Program-made: the position numbers and the translations under genes
Source: Zanthoxylum bungeanum
Lineage: Eukaryota > Streptophyta > Magnoliopsida > Sapindales > Rutaceae
Length of the DNA: 64,000 nucleotides
Direction: 5' to 3'
Assembly: GCA_019454045.1 (NCBI GenBank)
Contig: SKCR01007556.1
Span: forward strand, 1 to 64,000
The notes under the pieces: model-generated
What the model was told of the DNA's origin: nothing
What the model saw: only the letters and a program-made list of their open reading frames with translations
Databases searched by the model: none
Shown here: positions 8,641-61,934 of the stretch, in pieces
How positions within the stretch are numbered: position 1 is the first letter of the stretch
Layout of the letters: the number at the start of each line of letters is the position of its first letter

Positions 8641-8850
8641 GATGCGTCTCCATAACCGGAGTGCCATACCCGGCAAGACTGATATTGATGTTGATGTGTC
8701 TCCATACCCGAAGTGTCATACCCGGTAAGACTGATACTGATGCTAATGTGGGCCTCGCCCCCAAAGTGCCACAACCAGCAATACTGATACTGATGACGTG
8801 GGTCTCAACCCTGGGACTCATCTCTAAAACTGATACTAACACCGTGATGG
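8620..8850. repeat. Mixed tandem units with ACTGATACTGATG motif (T1)
   Basis: Units that join the CATACCCGGAGTGCC motif to CTGATATTGATGTTGATG. They mark the change from the 91-bp array towards the GTGGGCCTC...CTGATACTG type of repeat, which is also found at 9690-9860 and forms a large array in T2. Confidence 0.75.
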
Positions 8851-28541: not shown

Positions 28542-28826
28542 TCGCTGTGATATCTTCATACCCGGAGTGCCGTACCTGACGTGCTAAACCCCATACCCGA
28601 GGTGTCGCTATGATATCTACATACCTGGAGTGCCATACCCGGCAAAACTGATACTGATGTTGGTGTGTCTCCATACCCGGAGTGCCATACCCGGCAAAAC
28701 TGATACTGATGATGATGTGGGTGTGTCTCCCTACCTGGAGTGCCATACTCGGCAAAATTGATACTGATGTTGGTGTGTCTCCATATCCGGAGTGCCATAC
28801 CCGGTAAAACTGATATTGATGTTGAT
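28541..28826. repeat. Tandem units of the CATACCCGGAGTGCC type (T2)
   Basis: Five or six units linking CATACCCGGAGTGCCATACC with GGCAAAACTGATACTGATG, period about 55-63 bases. Same type as T1 at 8620-8750. Confidence 0.8.
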
Positions 28827-29603
28827 GTGGGCCTCGCCCCCGGGACTCATCCCCAAAACTGATATTGATGCTGATGTGGGCCTCGCCCCCATGACTCATC
28901 CCCAAAACTGATACTGATACTGATGTGGGCCTCGCCCCCGGCACTCATCCCCAAAACTGATATTGACACTGATGTGGGCATCGCCCCCGGGACTCATCCC
29001 CAAAACTGATACTGATACTGATGTGGGCCTCGCCCCCGGGACTCATCCCCAAAACTGATACTGATACTGATGTGCGCCTCGCCCTCGGGACTCATCCCTA
29101 AAACTGATACTGACAATGCTGATGTGGGCCTCGCCCCAGGGACTCATCCCCAAAACTGATGCTGATACTGATGTGGGCCTCGCCCCCGGGACTCATCCCC
29201 AAAACTGATACTGACAATGCTGATGTGGGCCTCGCCCCAGACGGATATTGATGTGGGCCTCAACCCTTACTGATACTGATGTGGGCCTCGCCCCCAAACT
29301 GATGCTGACGTGGGCCTCGCCCCAAATTGATACTAATGTGGGCCTCGCCCCAAACTGATACTAATGTGGGCCTCGCCTCCAAACTGATATTGATGCGGGC
29401 CTCACCCTCAAACTGATACTAATGTGGGCCTCACCCCCAAACTAATACTGATGGTGGCCTCGCCCCCAAACTGATACTGACGTGGGCATCGCCCTCAAAT
29501 TGATACTGATGCGGGCCTCGCCCCCAAACTGATACTGACGTGGGCCTCGCCCTCAAACTAATATTGATGCGGGCCTCGCCCCCAAACTGATACTGATGTG
29601 ATA
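28827..29603. repeat. Tandem array of two unit lengths, about 48 and 29 bp (T2)
   Basis: The landmark ATGTGGGCCTCGCCCC recurs about 21 times. The first nine units are 47-54 bases apart and contain GGGACTCATCCCCAAAACTG. From about 29250 the spacing drops to 27-32 bases because the GGGACTCATCCCC module is missing. The array ends where copia leader A3 begins. Confidence 0.9.
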
Positions 29604-31983: not shown

Positions 31984-31995
31984 GCTCTGATACCA
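31984..31995 (-). other. Primer-binding site of A3 (tRNA-iMet)
   Basis: Plus strand GCTCTGATACCA, the exact reverse complement of the plant tRNA-iMet PBS TGGTATCAGAGC, one base from the LTR. Confidence 0.9.
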
Positions 31996-31996
31996 T

Positions 31997-34033
31997 TGTT
32001 GGAGTTTCTACGGCCCCAAGGATCGAATATAAAGCAAGAAATATAAGTGGGAATACATCGAGGGAGTTACGGAATACTCACATCGATCGGTTGAGCGACG
32101 CGGGAGGCAACAAAAATTCGGTTTTCTGCCTACTATCATGCTCGGCAATGAGCTGCTGCAGTCCACCATTTTCGGCCTTTTGAGGTCTTCCATCAAGCTC
32201 CAAGCTTCATCAAACGATTCCAAGCTCATGGGTAGACTTCCTATCACCTTCGCATGTCTCTCGGAGTGCTAGCTCTCTTGATTTTTGCCACAAAAACCAA
32301 ACACTTTTGCTTCCTATCTCATGGTTTTTGCAAACCAGAAACAGAAGAAAATTTTCAGCCCCTTGGGCGTGTGAGAGGAAGAAGAAAGAGAAGAGAGAGA
32401 GTTGGAAAAATGTGTAAAAAAAGGTTAATTGATTCTCAAATCAATTCAACATATACCAAATATTAATAATAATATATGTCTATCAAGCTTTCAAAAAGCT
32501 TTCAACCACTTCCATAAAGTCACATCACTCAATCAATCAATGTGACAAGTTGTCACATCACTCAAAGTGACTAATGATTTGACGCTTGATGCGAGTAGCG
32601 ATTTGACGCTTGATTTGACTTGCGTGCCGCACTCGAATTAGAAATGTGAATGCGCTCGCAAACAATCTCGGGCTCGGGTTCGCTAATTCCAAATTAACGA
32701 ATTTTCTATTGCGACGTAATTTAATGATTATGCCTAGCGAAATCACTATTCACGTCGCTAACGAATTAATCCTAAATTAATTCATTCGCCCGAATTAAAA
32801 TCTAATTTTAATTCCGCGTCGAAATTCAATTTCGTTTAATATATCGAATATATTAATTTATCGATTAATTCCAAATTAATCGTTTCCTCTCATTAAATGA
32901 TATTTTATCCCAGATAAAATATCTCCGCAATTAATCTCAGATTAATTTCCTCTCTCGTCTAATTAATCCCAGATTAATTAAAGTGTGAGTCATACATCAT
33001 CGGTGAATCTTCGGGAAGCGACCCATGAGATCCCCGGATATGTTGGCAGTAAATACGGTCGTCGGACTATCCGAACACGTAAGTACCTCGTACTACATTT
33101 ATACCGATTTACAAGACAAGGTTGGCTTCTAGCAAAGTGCCATGCCTCCCAATTCTCTAGAAATATCCTTACAGGAATATAAGGATCTATATCAGGCGTA
33201 GTATACGTAGTATTGCGTATTTCGATCCAGTATCGGATGATCACATGCAAGGCCTGAGGCTGGTACAATGTCTGCCCCATACGAAGCATATATCGGATTA
33301 CGAGCAACTAGTCTCTTTATTATCGGATAATCATGACCAAGTCATATTATCCCGACGGTTGCAACCTTTTTAGAGAACCAGTTCTGTATCCCTACGCGAT
33401 CATCATCTCCATATGACTGGAGTGATACTTCCGTCTTGACATCACACCCAACACACTACGATTCTCAATATACCCAACAGAGGCGTACACAGAACCTGTT
33501 AAAGCCCTGGACGACCAAAACCAAAGTATATTGATTGTCGCAAGTATTAGCGGTGCAAGTCTCAGGTTAAGACCAAATACACCTACCCTGATTTCGGACT
33601 TCCATAGACACATAATCATACTACCAATGGAATTCCGAGGGGGTCTATCCAGAGCGAAGCTGTTTCCCTTACCATCGGTAAAACACAACCTCCTATTACA
33701 CTTGCATGAGTATCATATACCCAAATATATGGGAACTATGATGTTGTGCCCTCACAAACACGCACAAGTGTAATACTAGTCTTTTACGTATTTATCGATG
33801 TCCAATCTCGATAATACTCTGACTAGGGATATTTAATGATTCATCCTTCGTGGACTGATACTGTCTCATATCATTCTTAATCCAGGAACAAGTCATAAGG
33901 ACCTCCTATCATTTATATATCTAGGTGATCTAATCACAAATGATAAGAGTGCAATTTCCTTTGTCACATAGTTAATTTGTACAACACCATGATCTGTACA
34001 AATAGTGACGATATGGGTCATAATTGTCCAACA
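31997..34033 (-). repeat. LTR A3 (5' LTR of a minus-strand element)
   Basis: 2037 bp, TGTTGGAG...TTGTCCAACA, closely matching A5 (59896-61934) over its whole length. It adjoins a PBS on its left, so it is a 5' LTR. To its right the T2 leader resumes. Confidence 0.9.
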
Positions 34034-41675: not shown

Positions 41676-43687
41676 TGTTGGACAAGTATGACCCATAGCA
41701 TCACTATTTGTAAAAGACATGGTGTTTTTGTACAAATTAACTATGTGACATAGGAAATTGCTCTTTTATCATTTTGTAATAGGATTACTTGGATATATAT
41801 AAATGATAAAAGTCCTTATAATTAGTTCTGGATTAATAAGATATGAGACAGTATTAATCCACAAAAGGTTTAATCATTAAATATCCATAGTCGTAGTATT
41901 ATCGAGACTGGACATCGATAATGCGGAATAGGCTAGTATTACACTTGTGCGCGTTATGGAAGTTTAACAGTATAGTTCTCATATATTTAAGTATTGGATA
42001 CTTATGCAAGTGTGAAGGAGGTTCTGTTAGCTGTTGGACTGGGAACAGCTTCGCTCTGGATGGACCCCTCGAAATACCATTGGTAGTATGACTATGTGTC
42101 TATGGGAATCCGAATCAGGTTAGGTGTATGTGGTCTTAACCTGAGACTTGCATCGCTAATACTTGCGACAATCAATATACTTTGGTTTTGGTCGTCCGGA
42201 GCTTTAACAGGTTCTGTGTACGCCTCTTCTCTCGTTTACTGAGAATCGTAGTGTATTGGGTTGTGATGGTCAAGATGGAAGTATAACTTCAGTCAAATGG
42301 AGATGATGAATCACGCAGGGATACAGAACTAGTACTCTAAATGTTTGCAGCTATCGGGATAGTATGACCAGATCATGATTATCCGATTACAGAGACTAGT
42401 TGCTAGTGATCCGATATATGTTTCGTACGAGGCAGACACAATTCCAGCCCTAGGCCTAGCATGTGACATCAGATACTGGATCGTATTACGCAATACATTT
42501 GTATACTACGCCTGATACATATTATATATTCCTCGTTGAATATTTCTGGAGAATTGGGTAGGCACGGTGCTTTGCTAGAAGCCAACCATGTCTTGTAAAT
42601 CAATGAGAACGTGGTACTGGGTACGCACGTGTTCGGATAGACCGATGACCATATTTACTGCCAACATATCCAGGGATCTCTTTGGCGGCTTCCCAAAGAT
42701 TCACCGATGACATTTGACTCGAACAGAATTAATCTTGGATTAATTATGAGATAGAAAATTAATATGGGATTTATTACGACGGCAGAATTAATCTGGGATT
42801 AATTATGAAAGAGAAAATTAATATGGGATTAATTGCGGTAGAATTAATCTGGGATTAATTTCTAGAATAGAGAACGCGATTAATTTGGAATTAATCGGCA
42901 AAGTACATTTAATAGTTAAATTGGATTTACTATTTAATTTATTTAATTGGCTAAAATAATATATCGGATATATTAATTGAAATTGGATTTCAATACGGAA
43001 TTAAAATTAGATTTTAATTCAAGAGAACGAATTAATTTGGAATTAATTCATAAGCGACTTTCGTTAAAATTTTGTAAGGCATTATTATTTAATTAAATTG
43101 GATTTAATTACGTCGCAACAAAAAACTCATTTAATCAGATTAAACGAACCTGAGCCCAAAGTGTGTTGTACAAGCCAACTTAAATTTGGAATTTAATTGG
43201 GTGGGACCCACATCACTACATCAACTTGTCACTATTTGTGATGGAAGTGGTTGAGCTTATTAATAAAAATTAATTATACAACACGATAACCAAAATCAAG
43301 GTGTGATCGAAGTGGTTGGATAAAGTAATTGGATTTAGTTACAACACAACTACCAAGTTTAAAAGGTAATTGTTTTTGGAAAACACTAACTATTCACATT
43401 TCTTCTCTCTTTCTTCTCTGCTTGGCCGAACAAGCCTCTTCTTGATCTTGAAATTTTGTGTTGCAAAATTTCATCCTTGCTAGCACTTAAGGAGTCAAAG
43501 AAATGTGATAGGGAAACTCACCAATGAGTTTGGAATTCAAAATAAAAACTTGGAGCTTCTACATCCATGGAAAAGTTTTGAACTTCAACCCACACCCAAT
43601 TTAAGTATTCTGCAACCTTCTTTGGTAAATTCACACTTGAATCAATGTTTAGGATCTTTGGCATGTCTTAGAGACACTAATAGTTGC
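41671..43687 (+). mobile_element. Solo LTR A4 in the opposite orientation (GTTGC duplication)
   Basis: LTR at 41676-43682, starting TGTTGGACAAGTATGACCC and ending ...GACACTAATA, flanked by GTTGC at 41671-41675 and 43683-43687. It is the reverse complement of A1/A2/A3/A5. The last bases have mutated from CCAACA to CTAATA. It carries palindrome-like TTAATCTGGGATTAA repeats at 42720-42870. It is older-looking than A3 and A5. Confidence 0.82.
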
Positions 43688-46267
43688 TTATCAATACCAT
43701 TCTACAACTTTTCTTGCCTCTGGTCATCTGTATACCTTAGAACCTTGGAGTGTAGGGTCTGATTCTACATGTACCTCTTGTTCTCTATTATTGATTACCA
43801 ACGAGTTGGTACTAAGGAGGTTTGTTCCGGTAGCTTTTCAGGGACTTAAGTGTATGTATATTGTTGCTTAAACCGCATTTTGTTACTAATTCGAATGGTG
43901 GCGTTCAGCTCTAGTTACAGTTCATACTTTCTTCTTACCCTTACCCTTCCATTGCTACCAAGTTTGGGTACAGTGGTCCAATTTAACCTTGTTCTCTATA
44001 GTTTTAAATGCGGTCAAGGGTCGTTTCTCTTATACATGCAAATATACCATACCTTGAGAATTTATTCGTCATGCTAGTTGCAACTTTATCTTCTCGACTC
44101 CATGATATACTATATATCTACCAAACCACCCAATACATGTGGCTTAGTCCTCCAAACCCGCAATGGTTTGGTCAACTATGATTGGGTTTGAATATTCAAT
44201 GTGCTTTATATGAGGTGACACTTAATGGATCTTTGGTTTCATCCTAATATAAAGAAACTTGGTCGTTTCTCACTTTTATTTTTGCTTATTAGGTATTTTC
44301 TCCTACCATGTTGAACCTAAACGGCTTTATTACTTCCAAACCTTGCACCTGTTAACCTTTTTATCTTTTCATCTGCTCCGTTCTGTAACTGAATCTGTTA
44401 CGGCCTATATCTCTGTCTCTTTATCTGAAAGATGTCATCTCTTACTAATATTTAGTTATTTGTAACGATGTTCTTTCTTTCTTTATTGTTTCTCTAGATA
44501 ACTTCCCATGTTAAAATCTTACTTGGAGCTATTCCCTCTTCTATTCTATCCTTATACTAGTTTCTAAAGGTTTTCTGTTGGTCTCTTTCAACTACGTATT
44601 CACTTGGTTGTGGGAAAATTTTAAGACGAACATCGAAGTGTATCTTCATTGTTATTGTTTAACGAGGGTTTGGGAGGGTGGGTACTTAATATTGAGGCTT
44701 TGTGTGTTTTATGGTGATCTAATGGCACATATTTCGTTCGTCTAGAAATCTAGGATCCTCGTATATATATGTCTGATGTCCTTTCCTACACTAGGGGTGC
44801 TACTGCTAAGACTTGTCTGGCCTGCCTTCTCCAACCTAACTCCTGATCATTTTTTCATCAATTAATCACTCTATATCTTCTGCAAAAACTTTCCAACGCC
44901 ATGTTTGCTAACATCTTCCTCGTATTGCCTCTTTACTCCTTCCTCATTAATTCATGTTGTTTAACTCTCTGAATTAGCTATTTTCTTTCTATGAGTACTG
45001 CTATACTTTCTTAGAAGACTTGTTCTACTATAAGGTTTTCTTCTGTGTCTCAGTTTCTTAAATTCCTTACTTCTTTACTTTTTCTGAAAAACACTATCTA
45101 CTTCGACAACTCAGGACATCTTCTACTAATCTTTGGTCCATGTACTGATCTTCCTAGTCCTTCTTCTCAAATCCACGAATCCCTTTTTATAAATCGATCA
45201 CTATATTCCCAAGAAGAATTCTCATAATCTCTTCGTACTTTTAAGCCTTTACTTCTTCAACGGGTTCCTAATTCTATGATCATCTCCAGACTTAGATCAA
45301 CTTATAGTAGCTTCAAAAACTATTTTATTTCATGCTTCCTATCTATATTTCACTTGAACTTACCATTTAGTTGTCTAATCATCTCGCTACATTTAATTTA
45401 TCCATTACTCTACTTTACTAATTCTTTTCTTTACTAGGCTCTAAATTGAGAATGGATACATGCTCATGTGTTTGGTTCGGTATGTATATGCTTACTAGAA
45501 TCAAGGTTTTTGAAGGAAAGGTCATCATTCATTTTTCATGAGCCTGATCGACTACTCATTGTCTTGGGGTCCCACAACACTATCAATTTTCCACGCTATT
45601 ATCTTCTCACTTGTTATCCATGTACCATGAATGTATCAAATTTCCCTCGTTACTTTCTCGCGTGCTCTTTTACCATTTGGATATCTTAATTCTTTACTTT
45701 TTACCTTGCGACTGAGACTAACAAGTAGATCATTCTTTTATCCTCTGCTTCTTAGATCTCCCTTCAATAGGCTCGCTAATAAATCTTATTTTGGGTCATT
45801 CGATTCTACTGTTCATACTGGTACTCTTTGCCACCCCCCCCCCTAATATCTCCAGCTTCATGGGTCCATTCTTATATGCTCTATGATTTAAACTGACCTC
45901 GTGATTTATCTGTGGGTTTCTATGGCATTTGGTCTATCTTGTGGAACTCCCACTACTCGTGTACCTGGTGCGGACGTGTCCTAATTCAGTGGGTTATTCT
46001 GGTTCTTTTTCTTCAGACCTTCTAAGACCTCCTGAAATTCTTTTCTTGGTTATCTACATGCCCTTGGTCTTTCCATTTCTTAAGATGAATTCTCGTTGGG
46101 TTTTTCTTACGGTCGTCTACATCTATACTGGTAGAAAACTGATTTTAGATCTTTGGTTCATTTTTTTATATGCTAGATGGGCTTCTACATCCTTGTCCTA
46201 GTACTCTTACGTCCTAATGGAGTCTGTTTCTCATATAAGGATAATGGGGGGGGTATGGCGAGATTCC
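43688..46267 (-). other. Body of E, middle block (no gene)
   Basis: About 2.6 kb, rich in C and T on the plus strand. Several plus-strand frames of 60-90 codons are open but have no domain-like content. A C9 run lies at about 45835-45843. No coding function can be supported. Confidence 0.5.
46263..46267. repeat. Left target-site duplication of the Athila-like element (ATTCC)
   Basis: ATTCC, repeated at 57640-57644. Confidence 0.92.
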
Positions 46268-48372
46268 TGACCGGCGTAATCACACACGTATAACGCAAGC
46301 GCACGTTTCGTTCAAGTAGTATAAAAAGTATCGATCCCACGAGGACTTAAAACCTTTTTGTTATTAATTTATGGGGCCAACTGATTACCAGTATCTAACA
46401 GGTTGTTTGATTGATTGATTTGAAATGACGATGATTCTAAATTTAAAACAAGTAAATAAAATTGCTTAAAAGTAGGTTGAGAAAAATCCAAATTTATAAA
46501 AACTATCCAGGGTTGTGATTAATTCCAATATTATTTAGAAGATGAAGTGGTTATCTTAAAGTTGGGTAATATATTGATTTATTAACCTGGAACACTAATT
46601 TATGTAAAAGCCTCTTCCGATGGTCAATTTCAAATACCTAGTATAATCCAATTGAACCATATGTCTATGTCAACCAAATTACCTAGATTCATTAAGATTA
46701 AGTTCCAATTATGGCTACCCCCGCCCGACAGGTATATTCCTATCCTGTAAGGAAATCTATTAAAAGGGTTATCTATCCTCAAGGAAGATCGTGGGTTATT
46801 GAGTCTAAGGTCTTAAACTTAAAATCCCTATGTCTAGTTCATTTTAAGTTTACCTAATCAATTTTATTAATGGCCAGTTAATAAAAAGCATTAAGATTAA
46901 GACTCAATAAATAAATCTTTAAATTACCCAACCTATAATCTAACCCCTTATAAACCGGTTATATTGAAATTCATCACAACCCTAGATACTAACTTAGTTA
47001 CAATACATAGCTATGGCTAATGAAAACTTAAAAGACATAAAATAAAAATGCTAAAAAGTAACTGCGAGAAAGTAAAAGCGGGAAAGTAAATGAAAATAAA
47101 CTGCCAAGATAAAAGGAATTACTTTTACTAATTACTAACTTAGATATCTCCCTTAGTATAACATAATCACTTGTGAGATTAAAACCAACCGACCATATAG
47201 GCGGTACCCTGATTAAGTCAAGTTAAGTCCGACCAGCCATAAAGGCGGTAAAATTTGTCCATGAACCTGCCATGTAGGCGATAAAGAAATAACCACCAGC
47301 CATAAAGGCGGAACCAAAATTAAATTACCAACCGACCAATCTGGCGGTATCCTTGCTTAGTCAGGTTTAACAGTTTAAATTAAATAGCCCACCGACCAAT
47401 ATAGCGGTATTCCTTTTTAAGTCAAATTTTAGAATAGTGAATATGTTGTGTCTAAGGGAGATTAATCTAAGATAGTAACAGTAAAAGAATTACCTTTCAC
47501 CTCGGCAGAGGGAAGTTACCTCCTCATGGTTGAAAAATAAAAACTGAAAAAGTAAAGAAAGGAAAGTGTTATGCGTAAAGTAAATTACGGAAAGTAAAAC
47601 TGAAAAGTAAAGAAAAGAAAGTGCGAAAGTGAAAATTAATTACTGAAAACTAAAAATAAACAAACTAGATACAATCTTTTTATTTTTTCATTAAGGATTT
47701 CAAAGAAGAAAGTATGAATTTTACAAATGAAATGGCTTGGTATTTATAGGCAAAATTTTGCCACCATCAAATCATCAATCAATTTCTCCACCAAATCCAT
47801 TATTAATTTCTCCACTAATTACTCCACCAAATCCATAATTGCTCCACTAATTGCTTATCTTGTTTGGTGGTGATTTGATAATTTTTATTAATTATTTATT
47901 AATTAATATTTTGCTTTGAAAATGATTGATAATGACTTTTAATAATTACACTCCACACACTTCTGGATGGTTCATCAATTTCGGTCATGAAATCATCAGA
48001 ATTTGAAAATATTTTCTCTTTCAAAGTTGTAGATCTTTGAGTTCTTCTTTAATCTGGAACTTGAATCAGCTCAATCCGATATCTGAGTAAAACGTTATGC
48101 CCAAAATACGACAGATGCGCAAAACTGGAATTTCCAAAACTGCACTTCGTCAAAAACGCCCTTTCAAATTTCCAATCTCCAAAATTAATATATCAAGTCC
48201 AATAATTGCCCTTATTTGATCCACATTTCGTCCTAAATGATTTCATTGAGTCCCGATATTATTTTATCTGCAAAATAAAATAAAACATATCAAAACGTTC
48301 ATCAAACCCGAGAAACTAAACAAAATATTAAGTAAAAGGGGCGGTAAATATTGATATATTTTCCGCTCATCA
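46268..48372 (-). repeat. 3' LTR of the Athila-like element
   Basis: 2105 bp. It contains six imperfect copies of a CCRACCATATAGGCGGTA-type motif at 47187-47412, and an inverted repeat (AGGGTTGTGAT near 46510, ATCACAACCCT near 46973). A TATAAATA box lies on the minus strand at 47741-47748. Differences from the 5' LTR are mostly single-base indels in homopolymers. Confidence 0.92.
47187..47412. repeat. Six short repeats ending in GGCGGTA within the LTR
   Basis: ACCGACCATATAGGCGGTAC and variants (CCAGCCATAAAGGCGGTA, ACCGACCAATCTGGCGGTAT and others), spaced 28-59 bases. The same set is present in the 5' LTR at about 56460-56690. Confidence 0.8.
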
Positions 48373-48385
48373 CACCCCCAAACCT
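48373..48385 (-). other. Polypurine tract of the Athila-like element
   Basis: Reverse complement GGTTTGGGGGTG directly abuts the 3' LTR. This is the expected plus-strand primer for reverse transcription. Confidence 0.8.
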
Positions 48386-49707
48386 AACATTTTGCTAGTC
48401 CTCGAGCAAAACAACAAAATAAAATTAAAATTAAACTAAGCCACTTTCGTAGGGATCACGGTTGCATTTAGCGTATGCAACAAGCCTTTAAACCCCTAGG
48501 TGTCCCTAGTGGACGAGTTGTAGTCTCGTGAGGGTTTACAGCAACGATACCCACAAACGTTTTACAAAAGTAAAAAGTTAGTTAAAACTAATGCACACAA
48601 AAGCAAAAAGACAAGAGAAAAGAGAATAAAGAAGTTAATGACTAATCAAGTGAAACTTCTACTCCAAGTTACTAGTTGTTTTGTTTCTTTCTAAACTACC
48701 GAATAAGTAAATTCTCCGATTATATTTACCATTCTCCATATACACAGCCAGCAAAATATTAATCAACTCATTTTTGCCCACAACAGTCACAAGTGCAATT
48801 GATAAGAGAATAATATTTTTGTCCTAAGGTTCTATTAGATTTCACACCTTTTTATAGTAATGGAGTAAATTTTTTTTTTTTCTGATTTTTCTGATTTTTT
48901 TTTCTTTCTTTTTCTCTATTTTTTTATTTATATACAATATCTTCTGTCTATGTAGCGAGCTTTGGGTCGGTGGCTCCCAAACCAGTTGGCTTTAGGGCAC
49001 CAGGTGTTAAGACACCCCTACGGACTTAATTACCCAGACATTAGATATAAATATTTTTGCAACATCCTTGATCCATGTAGCGAGCTTTGGGCCAGTGACT
49101 CCCAAACCAGTTGGTTTTAGGGCACTGGGTGTTAAGACACCCTTACAGACTTAATAACCGGATCTCAGATTTTTTTTTTTTTTTTTTTTTTTTACTCCAT
49201 CACTTTTTGAGATGCTTCCTCCAATTAAACTATAGCACTGAATATTACAAAATTTTCAATTTTAGCTCATGACCGTGTGTTACTATGTATGTTGATAATA
49301 CCTGCCAACGGAGCATATGAAGATCCATTTTAGTCAGATTTATGGAGAATTCACAAATTAAATAATTCAAAAGGAAATAAACAAAAATTAACTTGTTTCG
49401 AAATAGGTTTGAGATACGTCTCAGGAGTGGAAATTCCTTACTCAGCTATCTCTTACCAATTTCACCTTTTTAGTCAAAATAAAAACACAAAAATGCAAAA
49501 TATTTTTGTAATTTTTGAAAATTTTTCAATTTTTTGTATTTTTCCGAAAAATTTTGAACTAAAAATAAAACAACATACAACTAAAAACAAGATATTAATC
49601 AGCTAATTCCCTCCCCCAAACCTAAATGAGACATTGTCCCCAATGTCTTAAACAGTAGAAGAAGAGTTTAGACGATAATACCTGGTTAACTGAAATTCTA
49701 CAGGAAT
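48386..49707 (-). other. Non-coding stretch downstream of the LOG-like sequence
   Basis: AT-rich with no credible frame. In element sense it contains A24 (plus T24 at 49170-49193), about 515 bases after the LOG stop, and A12 (48870-48881). Between the tracts are two 80-bp direct repeats. The two poly-T tracts are bordered by inverted ATGGAGTAAA/TTTACTCCAT (about 48861-48870 and 49191-49200). Confidence 0.6.
48951..49158. repeat. Pair of about 83-bp direct repeats
   Basis: TGTAGCGAGCTTTGGGTCGG... (48951-49036) and TGTAGCGAGCTTTGGGCCAG... (49076-49158), about 88% alike. Each ends GGTGTTAAGACACCC..ACGGACTTAAT, where GGTGTTAAGACACC is itself a small inverted repeat. They are separated by 39 bases. 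Confidence 0.9.
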
Positions 49708-50331
49708 TTAAAGGTTAAGATCCAGATTAACCCGACGTCTCTTACCACGATCGTCCCCAGACCAATTTATCTTTGAAATGAGTTGGTCAATTAGATCCGG
49801 AGCGGTTCTGGCAGTAAATAGAAGTTCTTTTAAAGGTTTTGATATGAACCCATTCCTCCGTGCATCATCAAGAAACACACAAAGAAAATCATAAAATCCA
49901 TCAACATTGTACACCCAATTGGTTTCTGGTGTATGTTCAGGTTCGCCCAAGATAGTACAATAAAATTTTCTCCAATGTACCCAAGCCACCTGGCAAAGCA
50001 ATAAAAGCATCAGCACGGTTAATCATTTCTACCAGTCGTTCAGACATACCTGGCACGATCAGTTCCTCTCCGTTTGATGTTTCAATAAGATTTGCCTCTG
50101 CCAAGGGTTTTGGGATGATTCCCAAAACATGACTGCCTCCTTCCTGTACAGCCTTTGAAACGATCCCCATTAGTCCAAGATTGCCTCCGCCATATATTAA
50201 GTGCATATTCCTTGCAGCTAAGACTCGACCCAATTCCTGTGCTGCTTCTATGTATTGTGGTTTAGTACCACACTACTACTACCGCAAAACACACAAATGT
50301 TTTCAACTCGTCTTCTTGAAGTGGCTTCCAT
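49708..50331 (-). pseudogene. LONELY GUY (LOG)-like cytokinin riboside monophosphate phosphoribohydrolase, captured, intronless, frameshifted
   Basis: LOG enzymes convert cytokinin riboside monophosphates to free-base cytokinins in plant cells. The minus strand begins with an ATG at 50331 (MEATSRRRVENICVFCGSSS). After a shift near 50270 it continues TKPQYIEAAQELGRVLAARN, HLIYGGGNLGLMG, AFIALPGGLGTLEK, SWANLNIHQKPIG, NVDGFYDFLCVFLDDARR and TAPDLIDQLI, ending KRRRVNLDLNL before a stop at 49708. These are the CFCGSS nucleotide-binding start, the YGGG-GLMG loop and the PGG-x-GT-x-x-E motif region, in correct order and full family length (about 205 residues). The last motif has Lys instead of the catalytic Glu. 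Three single-step frameshifts (near 50270, 49950 and 49920) break it. Plant LOG genes contain introns; this copy has none, which suggests capture from spliced RNA. It lies in element sense between pol and the 3' LTR. Confidence 0.88.
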
Positions 50332-50400
50332 TTTTATGTTTTTCTTTCTTAACTCTGAGGATGACTTCAAAGGTGCAATGATGAGTTGAATTTATAATAC

Positions 50401-50496
50401 CTGAAAGGGGTGAGTAAAAATAGCACAAGTATCTTCCAAAGGACGATTAGTAGAACAATAGTAAAATAGATCGTGATAGTCAAAAAGGTCTGGATC
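50401..50496 (-). other. Exon-like 96-nt open island between ORFX and LOG
   Basis: In element sense, a T-rich tract and CCGACAG precede a stretch of exactly 32 open codons (DPDLFDYHDLFYY..., ending THPFQ), followed by GTATTA. The AG|...|GT borders and open phase-0 reading look like an internal exon with its splice sites. I do not recognise the peptide. It may be part of the captured gene, or of an extra element ORF that is spliced. Confidence 0.4.
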
Positions 50497-50597: not shown

Positions 50598-51157
50598 CTA
50601 TGCGTCAGGGACAAGCTTCCCATCCAATTTTCTTATAAATTGGCAAACAGGGTCTTTTTGAGTCAGATTCCCAAGACTTAACTGTTGTCTTTCTTTTAGA
50701 AATTGTGTATGTAATTTGCGAATGGCTATATGAACATATCCACTGGGATGCGTCTCAAGAGTCGAAGATAGATCATCTAAAGACTCCTTACTCAAGCCAT
50801 CCCTAATGAATTTAATTTTGTCTTCGCGATTATCAGACACCATTCCTAAAGAACGACAACGAGTATTACAATTCCAACGTGCACATTTGAAACAAACACC
50901 CATTTTCTTTGCTCTACGTTTCTTTGATATGTGCTTCTTCCAAATCCAGGCAAATAAGAAGTACAAGAATCAGAATATTCACCTGCTAATCGAACTCGTG
51001 CTTCGATTACCCAACGAATATCATTAGGAATACCATTGATCGTCAGTAGTCTCATCCTTTCCAAGCGAGCTTTGTAAACTTTCATCAGAGATTTTTGAGG
51101 GAGAGAAGGAAATTGCTTGTGAAGATTTACGAGAGCTTCTTCCATCTTAATCTGCAA
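50598..51157 (-). CDS. Unknown extra ORF (ORFX) with a cysteine cluster, one frameshift
   Basis: Begins MQIKMEEALVNLHKQFPSLP about 115 bases after the pol stop, in the same orientation. After about 65-75 residues the reading shifts frame near 50960 and continues to VPDA at 50598, about 185 residues in total. It contains a basic stretch (KKHISKKRRAKKMG), a CFKCARWNCNTRC cluster (C-x2-C-x4-C-x3-C, zinc-knuckle-like), and then an open, mainly polar part (KIKFIRDGLSKESLDDL, HIAIRKLHTQFLKERQQ). Athila elements often carry an extra ORF (env-like) at this place, but no signal peptide or membrane segment is seen here. I do not recognise the family. Captured host sequence is equally possible. Confidence 0.5.
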
Positions 51158-51274: not shown

Positions 51275-54073
51275 TTAGGCTGGATCTGAAAGTGTGACAC
51301 TTTCTTTTTGTCGCTCCAACGGTTCTCCCCAATAATGCTTAACCCGCTGACTGTTAACTTTGAATGTGTTGTTGGTATTGGGATCCAGTAACTCAACAGC
51401 TCCATGTGGTAAAACCTGAGTGATCACAAATGGACCTGACCACCTTGATTTCAACTTTCCAGGGAAAAGTTTCAACCTCGAGTTGTACAACAACACCTGT
51501 TGCCTTGGTTCCAACTGTCTGTGCACTATTTTTCGGTCATGCCATCTCTTGGTCTTTTCTTTGTACAGTCTGGCATTCTCATAAGCCTGTAGGCGAAATT
51601 CCTCCAATTCATTGAGTTGGTGAAGTCTTTTCTCTCCTGCAGCTTGTGGATCAAAATTCAACTTCTTCAGTGCCCAGTACGCCTTGTGTTCAAGCTCAAC
51701 TGGCAGATGGCATGCTTTCCCAAACACCAATCGATATGGTGACATACCAATGGGTGTCTTGTAAGCTGTACGGTAGGCCCATAATGCATCGTCCAGTTTT
51801 GTAGACCAGTCCCTCCTTGTTGATCCAACGGTTCTTTCCAAGATTCTTTTGATTTCTCTGTTTGAAACTTCAACCTGTCCATTTGACTGTGGATGGTAGG
51901 CTGTGGCAACCTTGTGAGTAACTCCGTATTTGGATAGAAGTGCATCAAAGTATTTGTTGCAGAAATGAGAGCCACCATCGCTGATGATTGCTCGAGGTGT
52001 TCCAAACCGAGTGAAAATGTTCTTTTTCAGGAATTTGATCACCACTTTTGAATCATTGGATGGCAGTGCAATTGCTTCAACCCATTTGGAGACGTAGTCT
52101 ACAGCAACCAAGATGTACAGGTTTCCAAATGATGGAACAAAGGGTCCCATGAAATCAATACCCCACACATCAAATATCTCAACTTCCAGAATGTTTTGCA
52201 ATGGTCCTTCGTTTCTTCTCGAAATATTCCCCATTCTCTGGCACCTGTCACATTGAAAAGCAAAAAGATAAGCATCTTTTAAAAGTGTAGGCCAGAACAA
52301 ACCTGATTGAAGGACTTTTGCTGCAGTTTTGTTTCCGCTGAAGTGTCCGCCATATGGTGATGAATGACAGTGCTGCAAAACACTGTTGACCTCCTCCTGT
52401 GGAACACACCGTCTCAATAATTGATCAGCACACCGTTTGAACAGGTACGGCTCATCCCAGATATAGTGCTTGACTTCTTTGAAGAATTTCTTCCGTTGTT
52501 GAGTTGTCCATTCCAACGGCCATTTTCCTGACACAATGTAGTTGACATAGTCAGCATACCAAGGGGTATCTTGTTGTTTCATGGCAAACAGCTGTTCATC
52601 TGGAAAAGTTTCTTTGATTGACAGTTCTTTGCCAGCTGTTTCTCCATTCTCGATCCTCGATAAGTGATCTGCCACCTGGTTCTCTGTTCCTTTCCTGTCT
52701 CGAATCTCCACGTCAAATTCTTGCAGAAGAAGTATCCAACGGATCAATCTGGGTTTGGCATCTTTCTTCGCGATCAGATATTTGATTGCTGAATGATCTG
52801 TGTAGACTACCACCTTGGGACCCAACAGATAAGAACGAAATTTGTCAAAAGCGAACACAACTGCAAGCAACTCCTTTTCAGTGGTTGTGTAGTTGAGTTG
52901 AGCTTCATTCAAAGTTCTGCTGGAGTAGTAAATGGTGTGGAAAATCTTTGCTTTGCGTTGTCCCAAAACTGCACCTACAGCAAAATCACTAGCATCACAC
53001 ATTACTTCAAATGGAAGGGTCCAGTCTGGTGTTACAATGATGGGGGCAGAAACCAGCTTCTGTTTCAAGATCTCGAAGGCTTCCTGGCATTCTTTGGTGA
53101 AGTTGAAAGGCACATCCTTTTCCAGAAGGTTGCAAAGAGGTTTTGCAATTTTGGAAAAGTCTTTGATAAATCTCCTGTAAAAACCTGCATGTCCAAGAAA
53201 ACTCCGAATGCCTTTGACAGATGTTGGAGGAGGTAGTTTTTCAATTGTCTCGATCTTTGCTTTGTCTACCTCGATTCCCTTTTGTGAGATCCGGTGTCCA
53301 AGAACAATGCCTTCATGTACCATAAAGTGGCATTTCTCCCAGTTGAGTACCAAGTTCGTGTCTTCACACCTTTGTAATACATGTTCAAGATTTTGCAAAC
53401 AATGATCAAATGAATCTCCAAATACAGAAAAGTCATCCATGAAAACCTCCATACTCTGCTCCAACATATCTGAGAAGATGGCCATCATGCAACGCTGAAA
53501 TGTGGCAGGGGCATTACATAGTCCAAATGGCATCCTGCGGAAAGCAAAAGTACCATAAGGACATGTAAATGTGGTTTTCTCCTGATCCTCTGGTGCAATG
53601 GAAATCTGATTGTATCCTGAATATCCATCCAAAAAGCAATAGAACTCATGTCCCGCCAATCTGTCTAACATCTGGTCAATGAATGGCAGCGGAAAATGGT
53701 CCTTTCTGGTGGCTTTGTTCAGCTTACGGTAGTCCATGCATACTCTCCATCCAGTCACCGTTCTTGTCGGAATTAACTCATTCTTTTCATTGGGGATCAC
53801 AGTAATTCCTCCTTTCTTCGGCACACATTGCATAGGACTCACCCAACTGCTGTCTGAAATGGGATAAATGATGCCAGCATCCAACCATTTGATGATTTCT
53901 TTCTTCACGACTTCCTTCATGATTGGATTGAGTCTCCGTTGATGCTCCACAGTGGGTTTGTACTCATCGTTCATCAAGATTTTGTGCATGCAAAATGATG
54001 GACTAATGCCTCGAATGTCTGCTATAGTCCAACCAATGGCTTTCTTGTGCTCTCGCAATACTCTCATCAGCAA
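51275..54073 (-). CDS. pol: Athila-like Pol: reverse transcriptase, RNase H, integrase (open, 932 codons)
   Basis: Polyprotein that copies element RNA to DNA and inserts it. The frame is uninterrupted. RT (about residues 45-340) has [17 protein letters not shown] and the catalytic box FMDD (211-214). RNase H (350-475) has D360, the TTTEKELL glutamate (399/401), D426 (YTDH) and D469 (ADHLSR). The integrase zinc finger has H570, H577, C608 and C611. The integrase core is D640 (WGIDFMG), D699 (IISDGG) and E735 (GQVEVSN), a D,D(35)E arrangement. The C-terminal part ([12 protein letters not shown], 876-887) precedes the stop. All key residues are present. The upstream limit is not a real start: protease lies just before in another frame, with a one-base shift at about 54073-54085. 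Confidence 0.93.
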
Positions 54074-54444
54074 CTTTTCTTCTGTTCCAATGTTAGCGAC
54101 GAAGAAATTATAACAGGTAATTCAGAAGAGTTTCCAAGAAATGCATACCTGAGATGGCTCGGGAGTAACTTCAGCTCCAGCTGCGGTGGTTCTTCAATCG
54201 AGGGTTTGATCCGGTCTGTCTTTGGAAGTTCCAAACTTTCAATTGGTTGTGTCACTTTGAAACGAAACGGCTTGTCAAGATAGTTGATACATTCCATAAT
54301 TTCAGCATCAAGCTCACTGTCAGACATGTTGGTGATGCAAGCTTCAAGTTTGTCTGTGGGAATTGTATCAGTATCTTGAATGATACTATCAACAACATCA
54401 ATTCTGAAACATTCTTCTTCCTTTTCATCGCTCGGGAATTTCAT
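54074..54444 (-). pseudogene. Linker between protease and RT
   Basis: Open frame with DKPFRFKVTQPIESLELP and [18 protein letters not shown], the conserved stretch before Athila-type RT (HLRYAFLG). It ends EQKKSC at a stop caused by a one-base loss in a short homopolymer. The pol frame begins immediately after. Confidence 0.85.
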
Positions 54445-55125
54445 GGCTTTGAAACATTGAAAGTAACTTCTTGGTCCTGAACTTTCATGGTTAGTTCTCC
54501 TTTTTGTACGTCAATCACAGTTCTCCCTGTAGCCAAGAATGGTCTCCCAAGAATGATAGGAACATCTTTGTCTTCTTCCATGTCAAGGATAATGAAATCA
54601 GCTGGGAGAATGAGTTTGTCAACTTTCACCACACAACACATCTTCAACCACTCCTCTTGGAAATGCGAGCGTCCGATCGGCAAGTTGCAAAGAGACAGAG
54701 GTAGGCATTGCTTCTCCAATCTGTAGTTTCCTGTAAATAGAAAAAGGCATCAAGTTAACACTAGCACCTAAATCACATAAAGCCTTACCGATGTAATGTT
54801 CTCCAATGGTGCACGGGACTGTGAAACTGCCAGGATCTTTCAACTTCTGGGGTAGTTTCCTCTGAATGATGGCACTGCATTCTTCCGTCAATGCTACTGT
54901 CTCGTAATCTCCCAATCTTCGTTTTCGTGAAAGAATATCTTTCATGAATTTGACATAGCTGGGCATTTGTTCCAAGGCTTCTGCAAATGGAATGTTGATG
55001 TGCAGCTTTTTGAATACTTCCAGGAATCGAGCAAACTGCTTGTCCAGTTTGTTTTTCTGAAGACGCTGAGGAAAAGGTGGAGGTGGAGTAATCTGTTCTT
55101 TTTCCTTTGCTTCTTTTTCCTCCAT
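54441..55125 (-). pseudogene. Aspartic protease region (frameshifted)
   Basis: Protease would cut the polyprotein. In element sense: a gag-like tail (FARFLEVFKKLHINIPFAEA, MKDILSRKRRLGDYETVAL), the active-site loop ALCDLGASVNLMPFSIYRKL (DLGA in the DTG/DSG position, normal for this lineage), then after one frameshift near 54640 ADFIILDMEEDKDVPIILGR, PFLATGR and ELTMKVQDQEVTF. One frameshift separates the active site from the second half. Confidence 0.85.
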
Positions 55126-55425
55126 CTGTTGCTCTGCTTCTTTGGAACATCTTCAATGGTTGCCTTGATTCCAACATCTTTGTTGATTTCAGTACCACTT
55201 TTCAAAGGGGATGCTTTCAAAGGTGATTGGCTTGACATTCGCCTTCCTCGGTTCCTTGGATTTCGGTGTCTGTCCTCGAGGGGAATTGGTGGTGCAACCT
55301 CCAAAGGTTCAGGTTCCATGTTAACAATTGCTTCTTGGCCTTCTCGCCTTTCCTTCTCACTGTCTGATGGTTCTTTCAATCTCAGGGTCAAGCGATGGAT
55401 TTCAAAGCTTCTGCTCTCTCATTAA
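54942..55425 (-). pseudogene. gag: gag remnant (core missing)
   Basis: Between the PBS and the protease there are only about 400 bases of coding-like sequence. It is polar and Pro/Lys/Glu-rich (PPIPLEDRHRNPRNRGR, WRKKKQRKKNR) and changes frame near 55060. The usual Gag capsid domain of Athila elements, several hundred residues, is absent. A TGTTGCAG|GTTC sequence at about 55433-55440 in element sense resembles a splice acceptor. Gag would have to be supplied by another element for this copy to move. Confidence 0.65.
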
Positions 55426-55529: not shown

Positions 55530-55547
55530 TCCCCGGCAACGGCGCCA
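55530..55547 (-). other. Primer-binding site of the Athila-like element (tRNA-Asp)
   Basis: Plus strand TCCCCGGCAACGGCGCCA, exact reverse complement of TGGCGCCGTTGCCGGGGA, the tRNA-Asp-type PBS used by Athila elements. Five bases from the LTR. Confidence 0.93.
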
Positions 55548-55552
55548 AAACT

Positions 55553-57639
55553 TGACCGGCGTAATCACACACGTATAACGCAAGCGCACGTATCGTTCAA
55601 GTAGTATAAAAGTATCGATCCCAGAGGACTTAAAACCTTTTGTTATTAATTTATGGGGCCAACTGATTACCAGTATCTAACAGGTTGTTTGATTGATTGA
55701 TTTGAAATGACGATGATTCTAAATTTAAAACAAGTAAATAAAATTGCTTAAAAGTAGGTTGAGAAAAATCCAATTTATAAAAACTATCCAGGGTTGTGAT
55801 TAATTCCAATATTATTTAGAAGATGAAGTGGTTATCTTAAAGTTGGTAATATATTGATTTATTATTAACTGGAACACTAATTTATGTAAAAGCCTCTTCC
55901 GATGGTCAATTTCAAATACCTAGTATAATCCAATTGAACCATATGTCTATGTCAACCAAATTACCTAGATTCATTAAGATTAAGTTTCCAATTATGGCTA
56001 CCCCCGCCCGACAGGTATATTCCTATCCTGTAAGGAAATCTATTAAAGGGTTATCTATCCTCAAGGAAGATCGTGGGTTATTGAGTCTAAGGTCTTAAAC
56101 TTAAATCCCTATGTCTAGTTCATTTTAAGTTTACCTAATCAATTTTATTAATGGCCAGTTAATAAAAACATTAAGATTAGACTCAATAAATAAATCTTTA
56201 AATTACCCAACCTATAATCTAACCCCTTATAAACCGATTATATTGAAATTCATCACAACCCTAGATACTAATTAGTTACAATACATAGCTATGGCTAATG
56301 AAAACTTAAAGACATAAAATAAAAATGCTAAAAAGTAACTGCGAGAAAGTAAAAGCGGGAAAGTAAATGAAAATAAACTGCCAAGATAAAAGAAAATACT
56401 TTTACTAATTACTAACTTAGATATCTCCCTTAGTATAACATATCACTTGTGAGATTAAAACCAACCGACCATATAGGCGGTACCCTGATTAAGTCAAGTT
56501 AAGTCCGACCAGCCATAAAGGCGGTAAAATTTGTCCATGAACCTGCCATGTAGGCGATAAAGAAATAACCAGCCATAAAGGCGGAACCAATATTAAATTA
56601 CCAACCGACCAATCTGGCGGTATCATTGCTTAGTCAGGTTTAACAGTTTAATTAAATAGCCCACCGACCAATATAGCGGTATTCCTTTTAAGTCAAATTT
56701 TAGAATAGTGAATATGTTGTGTCTAAGGGAGATTAATCTAAGATAGTAACAGTAAAAGAATTACCTTTCACCTCGGCAGAGGGAAGTTACCTCCTCATGG
56801 TTGAAAAATAAAAACTGAAAAAGTAAAGAAAGGAAAGTGTTATGCGTAAAGTAAATTACGGAAAGTAAAACTGAAAAGTAAAAAAGAAAGTGCGAGAGTG
56901 AAAATTAATTACTGAAAACTAAAAATAAACAAACTAGATACAATCTTTTTTTTTTTCATTAAGGATTTCAAAGAAGAAAGTATATATATTACAAATGAAA
57001 TGGCTTGGTATTTATAGGCAAAATTTTGCCACCATCAAATCATCAATCAATTTCTCCACCAAATCCATTATTAATTTCTCCACTAATTACTCCACCAAAT
57101 CCATAATTGCTCCACTAATTGCTTATCTTGTTTGGTGGTGATTTGATAATTTTTATTAATTATTTATTAATTAATATTTTGCTTTGAAAATGATTGATAA
57201 TGACTTTTAAATAATTACACTCCACACACTTCTGGATGGTTCATCAATTTCGGTCTTGAAATCATCCGAATTTGAAAATATTTTCTCTTTAAAGTTGTAG
57301 ATCTTTGAATCTTCTTTAATCTGGAACTTGAATCAGCTCAATCCGATATCTGAGTAAAACGTTATGCCCAAAATACGACAGATGCGCAAAACTGGAATTT
57401 CCAAAACTGCACTTCGTCAAAAACGCCCTTTCAAATTTCCAATCTCCAAAATTAATATATCAAGTCCAATAATTGCCCTTATTTGATCCACATTTCGTCC
57501 TAAATGATTTCATTGAGTCCCGATATTATTTTATCTGCAAAATAAAATAAAACATATCAAAACGTTCATCAAACCCGAGAAACTAAACAAAATATTAAGT
57601 AAAAGGGGCGGTAAATATTGATATATTTTCCGCTCATCA
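55553..57639 (-). repeat. 5' LTR of the Athila-like element
   Basis: 2087 bp, colinear with the 3' LTR. I count roughly 40 differences, more than half single-base length changes in A or T runs. Confidence 0.92.
57009..57016 (-). promoter_or_regulatory. TATA-like box of the Athila-like 5' LTR
   Basis: TATAAATA on the minus strand (plus TATTTATA), conserved in the 3' LTR at 47741-47748. It is the likely Pol II core promoter of the element. Confidence 0.5.
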
Positions 57640-57644
57640 ATTCC
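57640..57644. repeat. Right target-site duplication of the Athila-like element (ATTCC)
   Basis: Matches 46263-46267. Confidence 0.92.
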
Positions 57645-59632: not shown

Positions 59633-59893
59633 GCGCGGTAAAACATCGTGGTAAATGTAGCCTTTTGGCATTTCCCTCGAATGGATGACCTTTAACCTAC
59701 ATGATTATCCCATGCACATCAAGTACCAATACATGAAAAAATAAATAAATAATATGGAACCTTGTATGCCCGATTGAACACATCTCACGTTCAATCAAAC
59801 GTACTTCGTCCGCCGCGGCAAAATATCGTGGTAAAGGTAGCCTTTACGCATTTCCCTCGAATAGAGGACCTTTAATCCACCCTAGTTAGCCCA
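59633..59893. repeat. 80-bp duplication at 180-bp distance in T4
   Basis: ATCGTGGTAAATGTAGCC... (from 59645) and ATCGTGGTAAAGGTAGCC... (from 59825) share about 80 bases, including CATTTCCCTCGAATRGAKGA, at an exact offset of 180 bases. Confidence 0.85.
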
Positions 59894-59895
59894 TG

Positions 59896-61934
59896 TGTTG
59901 GAGTTTGCTAAGGTCCCAAGGATCAATAAACAAGCAAGAATCAAGTGCGAATACAATCGAGAAAGTCACGGAATACTCACATCGATAGTTGAGCGACGCG
60001 CGAGGCAACAAAACTTTTCTGCTTCCTCTTTACTGCATTCGGCAGTGGCTATTTTTGGACTGCTCTATTTTCGGTTTCCTCTCCAAGAATCCAAGCTCCA
60101 AGCTTCGTCAAAAGATTCTCGGCTCATGGGTGGACTTCCCTATCACCTTCGCATGACTTCGTAGTGTGCTAGCACTCCCGATTTTGCCATAAAATCGCGA
60201 CTTTGGCTTCCCATTTCTCTCTTTGTCTCTCGGTTTTTAGACCATAAAATAGAAAGAAATTACAGCCCTCTTGGGCGAGAATGAGAGGGAGAAGTGAGGA
60301 AGAGAGAGATGTGAGATGGTTGGTGGAAAAGTGTATCAAATACACTTAAATGATTTTCCAAATTCATTTCCTTATTTTTTTGCTTTCAAAAAGTCAATCA
60401 ATAAACGCCAACAACCAATCCATCACTATTCACATCATTCAAGTTGTCAAGTCACATCACTCAAAGTGACAAGTGATTTGATGCTTGATGCGACTAGCGA
60501 TTTAACGCTTGATTTGACTTGCGTGCCGCACTCGAATTCGAAATGTGAATGCGCTCGTAAATAATCCCGGGCTCGGGTTCTCTAATTCCAAATTAACGAA
60601 TTTTCCATTGCGACGCAATTAAATGATTACGCCTAGCAAAGTCACTATTAACGTTGCTAACGAATTAATTCTAAATTAATTTGTTCGCCCGAATTAAAAT
60701 CTAACTTTAATTCCGCGTCGAAATGAAATTTCGTGTAACAAATCAAATATATTAATTAATCGATTAATTCAAAATTAATCGTTATCTCTCTTTAAATGAT
60801 ATTTTATCCCAGATAAAATATCTTCGCAATTAATCCTAGATTTATTTTCTCTCTAATCTTATTAATCCCAGATTAATTAAAGTGCGAGTCATACGTCTTC
60901 GATGAATCTTCGGGAAGCGACCCATGAGATCCCCGGATATGTTGGCAGTAAATTCGGTCGTCGGACTATCCGAACACGTAAGTACCTCGTACTACGTTTA
61001 TACCGATTTATAAGACAAGGTTAGCTTCTAGCAAAGCGCCATGCCTACCCAATTCTCCAGAAATATCCTTACAGGAATAAAGGATCTATATCAGGCGTAG
61101 TATACGTAGTATCGTGTATTTCGATCCAGTATCGGATGATCACATGCAAGGCCTGGGGCTGGTACAGTGTCTGCCCCGTACGAAGCATATATCGGATTAC
61201 GAGCAACTAGTCTCTTTAATATCGGATAATCATGACCAAGTCATATTATCTCGACGGTTGCAACCTTTTTAGAGAACCAGTTCTGTATCCCTACGCGATC
61301 ATCATCTCCATATGACTGGAGTGACACTTCCGTCTTGACATCACACCCAATACACTACGATTCTCAATATACCCAGCATTGGCGTACACAGAACCTGTTA
61401 AAGCCCTGGACGACCGCAACCAAAGTATATTGATTGTCGTAAGTTTAGCGGTGCAAGTCTCAGGTTAAGACCTAATACACCTACCCTGATTTCGGACTTC
61501 CATAGACACATAGTCATACTACCAATGGAATTCCGAGGGGGTCTATCCAGAGCAAAGATGTTTCCCGTACCATCGGTAAAGCACAACCTCCTATTACACT
61601 TGCATGAGTATCCTATACCCAAATATACGAGAACTATGTCGTTTTGCCCTCACAACGCGCACAAGTGTAATACTAGTATTTTTACATATTTATCGATGTC
61701 CGATCTCGATAATACTCTAACTAAGGATATTTAATGATTTGTCCTTCGTGGATTGTTACTGTCTCATATCATTCTCAATCCAGGAACAAATCACAGGGAC
61801 CTCCTATCATTTATACATCTAGGTGATCTAATCACGAATGATAAGAGTGCAATATTCTTTGTCACATAGTTAATTTGTACAACAACACCATTATCTATAC
61901 AAATAGTGACGGTATGGGTCATAATTGTCCAACA
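59896..61934 (-). repeat. 3' LTR of copia element A5
   Basis: 2039 bp, TGTTGGAGTTTGC...AATTGTCCAACA, with a purine tract on its right in element sense (GGCCAAGTGGGAGAT, plus ATCTCCCACTTGGCC at 61935-61949). It is the reference copy that identifies the A family as copia. Confidence 0.9.

Follow-up and report, generated by a model that had tools for sequence, protein, structure and literature searches.

A LOG-family domain inside Ty3/gypsy retrotransposons is already known, since Alvarado-Marchena et al. 2022 (PMC9289625, in the part available) report YgdH, a domain known otherwise from LONELY GUY (LOG) proteins, in Gypsy consensuses of Citrus sinensis and Citrus clementina, and in a P. trichocarpa Gypsy consensus once the n5 filter is dropped, a result that they describe as agreeing with Steinbauerova et al. 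2011. The locus described here resembles these cases in that a LOG-family domain lies inside a plant Gypsy element; the available text of that paper devotes two sentences to the domain and does not touch on introns, structure, selection, a partner ORF, a tail or an expression signal. A second parallel from the same source is provided by Phalaenopsis Gypsy elements with an ORF for an AlkB-type m6A demethylase, where an extra enzyme gene has likewise been fixed and kept over several rounds of replication; these differ from our elements in the enzyme concerned, and in that ours often carry two extra ORFs, one of them for a putative hormone enzyme. Athila and Bagy-2 share with our element a non-chromovirus pol that is followed, before the 3' LTR, by an additional ORF in sense orientation, but here the env-like ORF is replaced by LOG together with an ORF for a nucleic-acid-binding protein (NABP), as far as the available parts of PMC7264820 and PMC6317226 go. 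Our ORFs of 217 and 182 aa escape the count of extra ORFs in the latter, because its limit there is given as at least 250 codons. In the open-access literature, including the available parts of PMC7264820, PMC11963269 and PMC6317226, no description was found of the pairing of LOG with NABP, of the C-terminal tail or of selection on LOG. Three features therefore look new: the NABP-type partner ORF, a C-terminal tail made of a basic stretch and LxLxL, and a conserved block upstream of LOG. We argue that LOG is a selected, standing accessory gene of a retrotransposon lineage, active on cytokinin, and hold this to be the best explanation of the whole, at a probability of roughly 0.6.

A LOG-family gene between pol and the 3' LTR

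The window, a stretch of 64,000 nucleotides from Zanthoxylum bungeanum, holds on its minus strand a single Ty3/gypsy LTR retrotransposon that spans LOG, as delimited by LTR comparison and a Pfam scan. The 5' LTR (55553-57639, 2087 bp), which in element sense starts with TGATGAGCGG and ends in CCGGTCA, and the 3' LTR (46268-48372, 2105 bp) are 98.1% identical, with 2069 matches, 14 substitutions (5 transitions and 9 transversions) and 26 gap columns, giving a K2P distance of 0.0068. At two substitution rates for plants, this would correspond to about 0.26-0.48 million years, and some of the LTR differences may be assembly error. Copies of ATTCC at 46263-46267 and 57640-57644 bound the element as a target-site duplication, in agreement with an earlier note on this DNA. 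The element ends TG..CA, a primer binding site (TTTTGGCGCCGTTGCCGGGG, 55531-55550, found by eye) adjoins the 5' LTR and a polypurine tract (TTAGGTTTGGGGGTG, 48373-48387) adjoins the 3' LTR; with the LTRs, the 5-bp duplication and the order RT-RH-INT, these are the features of a Ty3/gypsy element.

Read in the sense of the element, the interior begins with a gag-protease remnant in interrupted frames (54444-55418), from which most of gag is absent by comparison with copy L012. It is followed by pol (51275-54073), open in the window copy and matching RVT_1, RNase H, integrase zinc binding and integrase core in Pfam, then by a NABP-like ORF (50598-51145), frame-shifted in the window, whose domain is of the carlavirus nucleic-acid-binding type in the open copy L006 (protein P0122). 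A conserved block at 50384-50425, consisting of a splice-acceptor-like CTCACCCCTTTCAG^G and then TATAAAT, places its CAG 69 nt from the ATG of LOG. The LOG-family gene itself, a relic here, runs from the ATG at 50331 to a TAA at 49708-49710, and about 80 nt 3' of its stop lies a polypurine tract-like TTTAGGTTTGGGGGAGGGAAT (49606-49626). All of these features are on the minus strand.

According to the available part of PMC6317226, Athila elements are recognised by having neither a chromodomain nor an extra RNase H of the Tat type, and in our Pfam scan pol has neither (its RNase H ends at 453 and its integrase zinc-binding domain starts at 557). The Athila ORF-1 domain PF03078, which the same part of PMC6317226 gives for 16% of Athila elements, did not come up in Pfam for pol, LOG, NABP or the L012 gag frame, an absence that carries little weight. 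The lineage is probably a non-chromovirus, Athila-like Ty3/gypsy.

The window also holds several repeats. Between LOG and the 3' LTR, 48926-49159 is a tandem pair of ~110-nt copies, 83-85% identical at a spacing of 125. Outside the element, 31993-34033 with 59891-61934, and 17103-18619 with 41676-42848 (inverted), are repeats of ~1-2 kb with pairwise identities of 82-86%, LTR-like by length only, and the stretches 7916-8842 and 28535-29600 each have internal repeats and are alike.

The earlier note had read the segment 50331..49708 as a LOG homologue in sense orientation between pol and the 3' LTR, and this is borne out: a 98-aa piece matches Pfam PF03641 at 66.7 bits, the open copy L006 (protein P0001) scores far above the cut-off of the same model, and pol (54073..51275) is on the same strand. 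The accompanying description as full-length, at about 205 residues, does not hold for a single frame, as the longest pieces, of 98 and 102 aa, lie in different frames. Against the unbroken native copies L012, L024 and L028, the window LOG has gained 2 bases near base 60; it has lost single nucleotides at 359 and 418 and, in frame, 30 nt at 551. Frame damage of LOG copies may partly be assembly error, because L009 and L010 (2 of 21 other copies) have single-base indels with zero substitutions against the column majority; the pattern suggests residual long-read errors in the assembly, and the frame status of individual copies is therefore unsafe. No direct repeats of at least 40 nt flanking LOG were found in the element, and as the position of LOG is also constant in other copies, its arrival as a separate nested insertion is unlikely.

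The LOG protein and its partner

P0001 belongs to the LOG family by PF03641 (124.6 bits, cut-off 27) and TIGR00730 (174.7 bits, cut-off 96.35). Its score of 117.6 bits against the NCBIfam equivalog NF058542, for cytokinin riboside 5'-monophosphate phosphoribohydrolase, is below that model's cut-off of 300, which may only mean that the model is narrow, and we claim membership of the LOG family rather than of this equivalog. Of 20 sequences compared, all have E121 and at least 90% have R98; the strict form PGGxGTxEE occurs in 30 of the 44 own-genome copies, from which the other 14 depart. We take the PGGxGTxxE motif, with R98 and E121 as the catalytic Arg and Glu, to be the active site.

A basic stretch and then LxL or LxLxL make up the C-terminus of 79 of the 98 relatives of P0001 with 205-260 aa (89 of the 120 listed, before 22 were dropped by length), and a basic plus LxLxL tail occurs in none of the 120 AtLOG3 relatives listed, a control composed of LOG3-type LOGs only. 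The tail resembles a nuclear localisation signal plus an EAR motif. The listed relatives of the Xanthoceras type end before the LxLxL part and retain the enzyme domain. Three Xanthoceras sorbifolium gene models (P0009, P0018 and P0032; 290-359 aa) each contain two LOG-like stretches, and may be fused neighbouring copies. Judged from its sequence, the LOG gene probably encodes a functional cytokinin-nucleotide phosphoribohydrolase whose EAR-like LxLxL tail would direct it to the nucleus.

The element LOGs are like Arabidopsis LOG3 (PDB 2a33) and LOG8 (PDB 1ydh) in domain, length and active-site motif; unlike these, they are intronless in this genome, multi-copy, and extended by the tail. LOG3 and LOG8 are 40-48% identical to four own-genome element LOGs. 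Considering that eight element LOGs are 44-56% identical to LOG3, and that the best 120 of 7998 AtLOG3 relatives share 73-99% identity with it (80% or more for 118 of the 120), the element LOGs have diverged far more than the LOG3-type LOGs.

The ORF between pol and LOG has 182-183 aa and is open in L006, where the NABP protein scores 28.2 bits against Carla_C4 (gathering 20.9) and 28 bits against Viral_NABP (gathering 23). At E <=0.001, Carla_C4 and Viral_NABP are matched by 13 and 14 of 17 NABP relatives, respectively, and the best 120 of 246 relatives all carry PF01623; Xanthoceras, Populus, Acer and Rhamnella are the named sources among those listed. The likeness to the carlavirus NABP is one of domain, and the differences are the length (182 aa, with 35 residues in the Carla_C4 match) and the carriage by a retrotransposon. 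An AlphaFold model of the protein is poor (mean pLDDT 60.7). Scans of viral contigs for relatives gave no confirmed locus.

Both the tail and the partner lend themselves to a non-hormonal reading, whereby the product would be a nuclear repressor or scaffold of the EAR type, or another nucleotide-cleaving enzyme, with the LOG fold as its carrier. The absence of the basic plus LxLxL tail from 120 LOG3-type LOGs, the strong divergence from LOG3 and LOG8, and the pairing with a nucleic-acid-binding ORF would all suit such a product. However, the residues of the active-site motif are mostly retained among relatives, and the listed Xanthoceras-type proteins have kept the enzyme domain even where they end before LxLxL, so that we regard a non-hormonal product as unlikely, albeit as an alternative to be taken seriously.

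LOG-bearing copies and their surroundings

In a 3.96-Gb plant assembly, a DNA search with the LOG segment matched 39 further places at 92-97% identity (40 scored of 3750 candidates), 38 of them over essentially the whole segment and one over 71-624; the LOG homology of the window is thus not a chance match. The numbers 3750, 68670, 57829 and 40276 in our genome searches are first-look candidates and not copy numbers. Twenty of the 39 were fetched and read at 10 kb, and as they were selected for their LOG match, LOG is present in them by construction and it is their context that is informative. The NABP ORF lies upstream in 19 of the 20 (the exception is L016), pol or its C-terminal end also in 19 (all save L013), and an LTR match in the same sense follows downstream in 18 (all save L021 and L023). 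Most of pol is gone from seven copies (L012, L014, L016, L025, L026, L027 and L028, with L026 and L027 identical in results), which have kept LOG and, in six of the seven, NABP as well. In L012 an open gag-protease frame of 790 aa, matching Retrotrans_gag, is accompanied by open NABP and LOG frames.

The best 150 rows of a protein search with P0011 are all full-length or nearly so, at 71-76% identity, and comprise 91 without stops and 59 with internal stops; with AtLOG3, the best 150 rows all span at least 193 residues, and 145 are without stops. A single search thereby yields at least 150 full-length LOG matches. Around eight divergent LOG copies, NABP is found within 1.3 kb upstream in four (L049, L053, L054 and L056) and is absent from that interval in the other four (L050, L051, L052 and L055), and an LTR start lies downstream of one of the eight (L081), for which reason the LTR context of most divergent copies is not directly evident. 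Further upstream of L050, an ORF in L059 shows a CxxC..H..C pattern, which by eye we take for a gag remnant. In L007 and L013, a LOG copy is close to a piece resembling a receptor-type protein kinase, and L013 has no upstream pol match. A capture private to the window copy, as the earlier note had pictured it, is not supported by these data: an amplified family and divergent subfamilies all have LOG in the same position.

Ten copies from about six LOG clades have in common a TTATTACTCACCCTTTTCAGG-CTATAAATTCAGCTC type of block, which lies about 70 nt before the LOG ATG, with CAG at the acceptor position in nine and TAG in L054. When 300 nt of the 10 copies are aligned, the best 30-column window reaches a mean pairwise identity of 0.86, against a mean of 0.43 and a maximum of 0.73 elsewhere. 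By resemblance, this block would be a TATA box, a 3' splice acceptor or both. On the 3' side of LOG, a ACATTGGGGACAATGT-like stretch and a purine-rich tract, degenerate in some, are present in 8 of 10 sequences (L082 and L086 are without them). In the window, ACATTGGGGACAATGT precedes the tract TTTAGGTTTGGGGGAGGG (49606-49626) just 3' of LOG, which is like the tract TTAGGTTTGGGGGTG at the 3' LTR; the one behind LOG might be a central PPT or the trace of a former 3' end.

Relatives of the element LOGs occur in Populus, Reevesia, Paulownia and Xanthoceras. That they are element-borne in other plants rests on P0117 (LOG) and P0143 (NABP), which probably share one JGI contig of 4511 bases, and on the available part of PMC9289625. 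Could we be looking at a host LOG subfamily, with 217-aa proteins expanded as retrogenes and only secondarily linked to retrotransposons? Some Populus members are named LOGL10 by NCBI, and the LTR start at only one of eight divergent copies would be expected of such a history, but against it stand the constant order pol - NABP - LOG - LTR around the window-type copies, the one upstream block in 10 copies of about six LOG clades, the presence of NABP before LOG in four of the eight divergent copies, and the publication of a YgdH domain in Citrus and P. trichocarpa Gypsy consensuses (PMC9289625, in the part available). Taken together, these make a host subfamily improbable.

Selection on LOG

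Our dN/dS set comprises 44 sequences: four copies (or the neighbour L014b) from the 10-kb set and 40 ORFs from the protein searches, 39 of which were taken from rows without stops among the top-scoring matches. Because of this picking from stop-free rows, the 43 open frames among the 44 reflect choice, and dN/dS of close pairs is biased downward. Over the 946 pairs, the median NG86 dN/dS is 0.41 at dS <0.05 (12 pairs), 0.32 at dS 0.05-0.1 (36 pairs), 0.20 at 0.1-0.2 (78 pairs), 0.23 at 0.2-0.5 (103 pairs), 0.16 at 0.5-1 (128 pairs) and 0.13 at 1-3 (589 pairs), where dS above 1 is near saturation. The value of about 0.13 between distant copies speaks for purifying selection on LOG; sampling bias and dS saturation do not account for proteins that are still 71-76% identical when synonymous sites have diverged so far. 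L012 and L014b, from two subfamilies and both with open frames, differ by a dN of 0.039 and a dS of 0.239. As read from codon substitutions, these comparisons show that LOG has been kept by purifying selection within the element lineage. Selection on NABP is less clear, because dN/dS of its pieces spreads from 0.19 to 0.73 in five short comparisons.

The dN/dS pattern largely refutes the idea of a passenger, i.e. a LOG that entered by template switching and travels with the element without any function. The broken window copy and many others like it, with stops in 59 of the 150 rows against P0011, are what a passenger would leave behind, but neither the dN/dS of 0.13 at dS 1-3, combined with 71-76% identity to a protein of another source, nor the retention of LOG in seven of 20 copies short of most of pol, nor the conservation of tail and upstream block agrees with it. 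We consider a functionless LOG very improbable.

Introns and the origin of the element LOG

The earlier note had contrasted an intronless LOG in the element with intron-bearing plant LOGs, and a host LOG (L088) of the same genome does match in four separated pieces, whereas the open element LOGs run uninterrupted through the candidate intron sites. With a 53-residue piece of AtLOG3, two places, L088 and C2730, stand out (73%, 81.9 bits; next 68.3). In L088, a GT follows the first match, and the breaks fall near LOG3 residues 41, 76-80 and 118. Annotated canonical LOGs have extra residues at LOG3 positions 84 (3 proteins), 117/118 (9), 141 (5) and 41 (1), which is consistent with intron sites. 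Full-length AtLOG3 found only long uninterrupted, element-like matches among the 150 scored in the genome.

Capture at the RNA level is still the simplest origin for a LOG without introns, and to this extent the proposal of the earlier note stands; no donor was found in the genome and relative comparisons, and LOG3 and LOG8, at the 40-48% identity given above, are distant. In a protein tree, the own-genome, Populus, Reevesia, Paulownia and Xanthoceras proteins group apart from LOG3 and LOG8. One single capture of LOG is suggested by this grouping, and no more than suggested, because the tree is rooted on LOG3 and LOG8 and includes no further host LOG.

That the LOG segment mainly feeds small RNAs for the silencing of host LOG genes is scarcely credible: its homology with the LOGs of the host, and its many copies, would serve such a role, but selection acts at the protein level, and the two printed matches of an element LOG to L088, at 49% (41 residues) and 54% (28 residues), are too low in identity for direct silencing of that gene to be plausible.

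Discussion

Returning to LOG as a selected accessory gene active on cytokinin, we envisage that it was acquired from spliced RNA, once or a few times, long ago, and came to occupy the slot of the env-like ORF, usually downstream of the NABP accessory ORF, where it would have diversified along with the element under purifying selection. Expression would probably proceed from an mRNA of its own, either spliced to the conserved acceptor or started at an internal TATA promoter just upstream. The product would probably cleave cytokinin nucleotides, with a tail that is nuclear-localising and EAR-like, and would most likely raise active cytokinin, or shift cytokinin-linked transcription, wherever the element is expressed. 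Dividing or meristematic states could thereby be favoured, and integrations made in them inherited. The earlier note's phrase of a mobile hormone-activation gene is plausible for the open copies, and fails for the broken window copy.

We also posit, tentatively and as something possible rather than probable, that in a lineage of angiosperm retrotransposons the env slot has been turned into an effector cassette, in which a plant-virus-like NABP, possibly a silencing suppressor, and a nuclear cytokinin enzyme would together manipulate the hormone state and the RNA defence of the host, and which would be kept even by copies without pol.

If the preferred reading of LOG as a standing accessory gene is true, we have before us a retrotransposon lineage with a hormone-activating enzyme under long-term purifying selection, and the manipulation of cytokinin by an element, together with what the element gains from it, would become directly testable. 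A practical consequence extends to genome annotation: as element LOG relatives are annotated LOGL10 in Populus, the number of LOG genes counted in such genomes can be too high.
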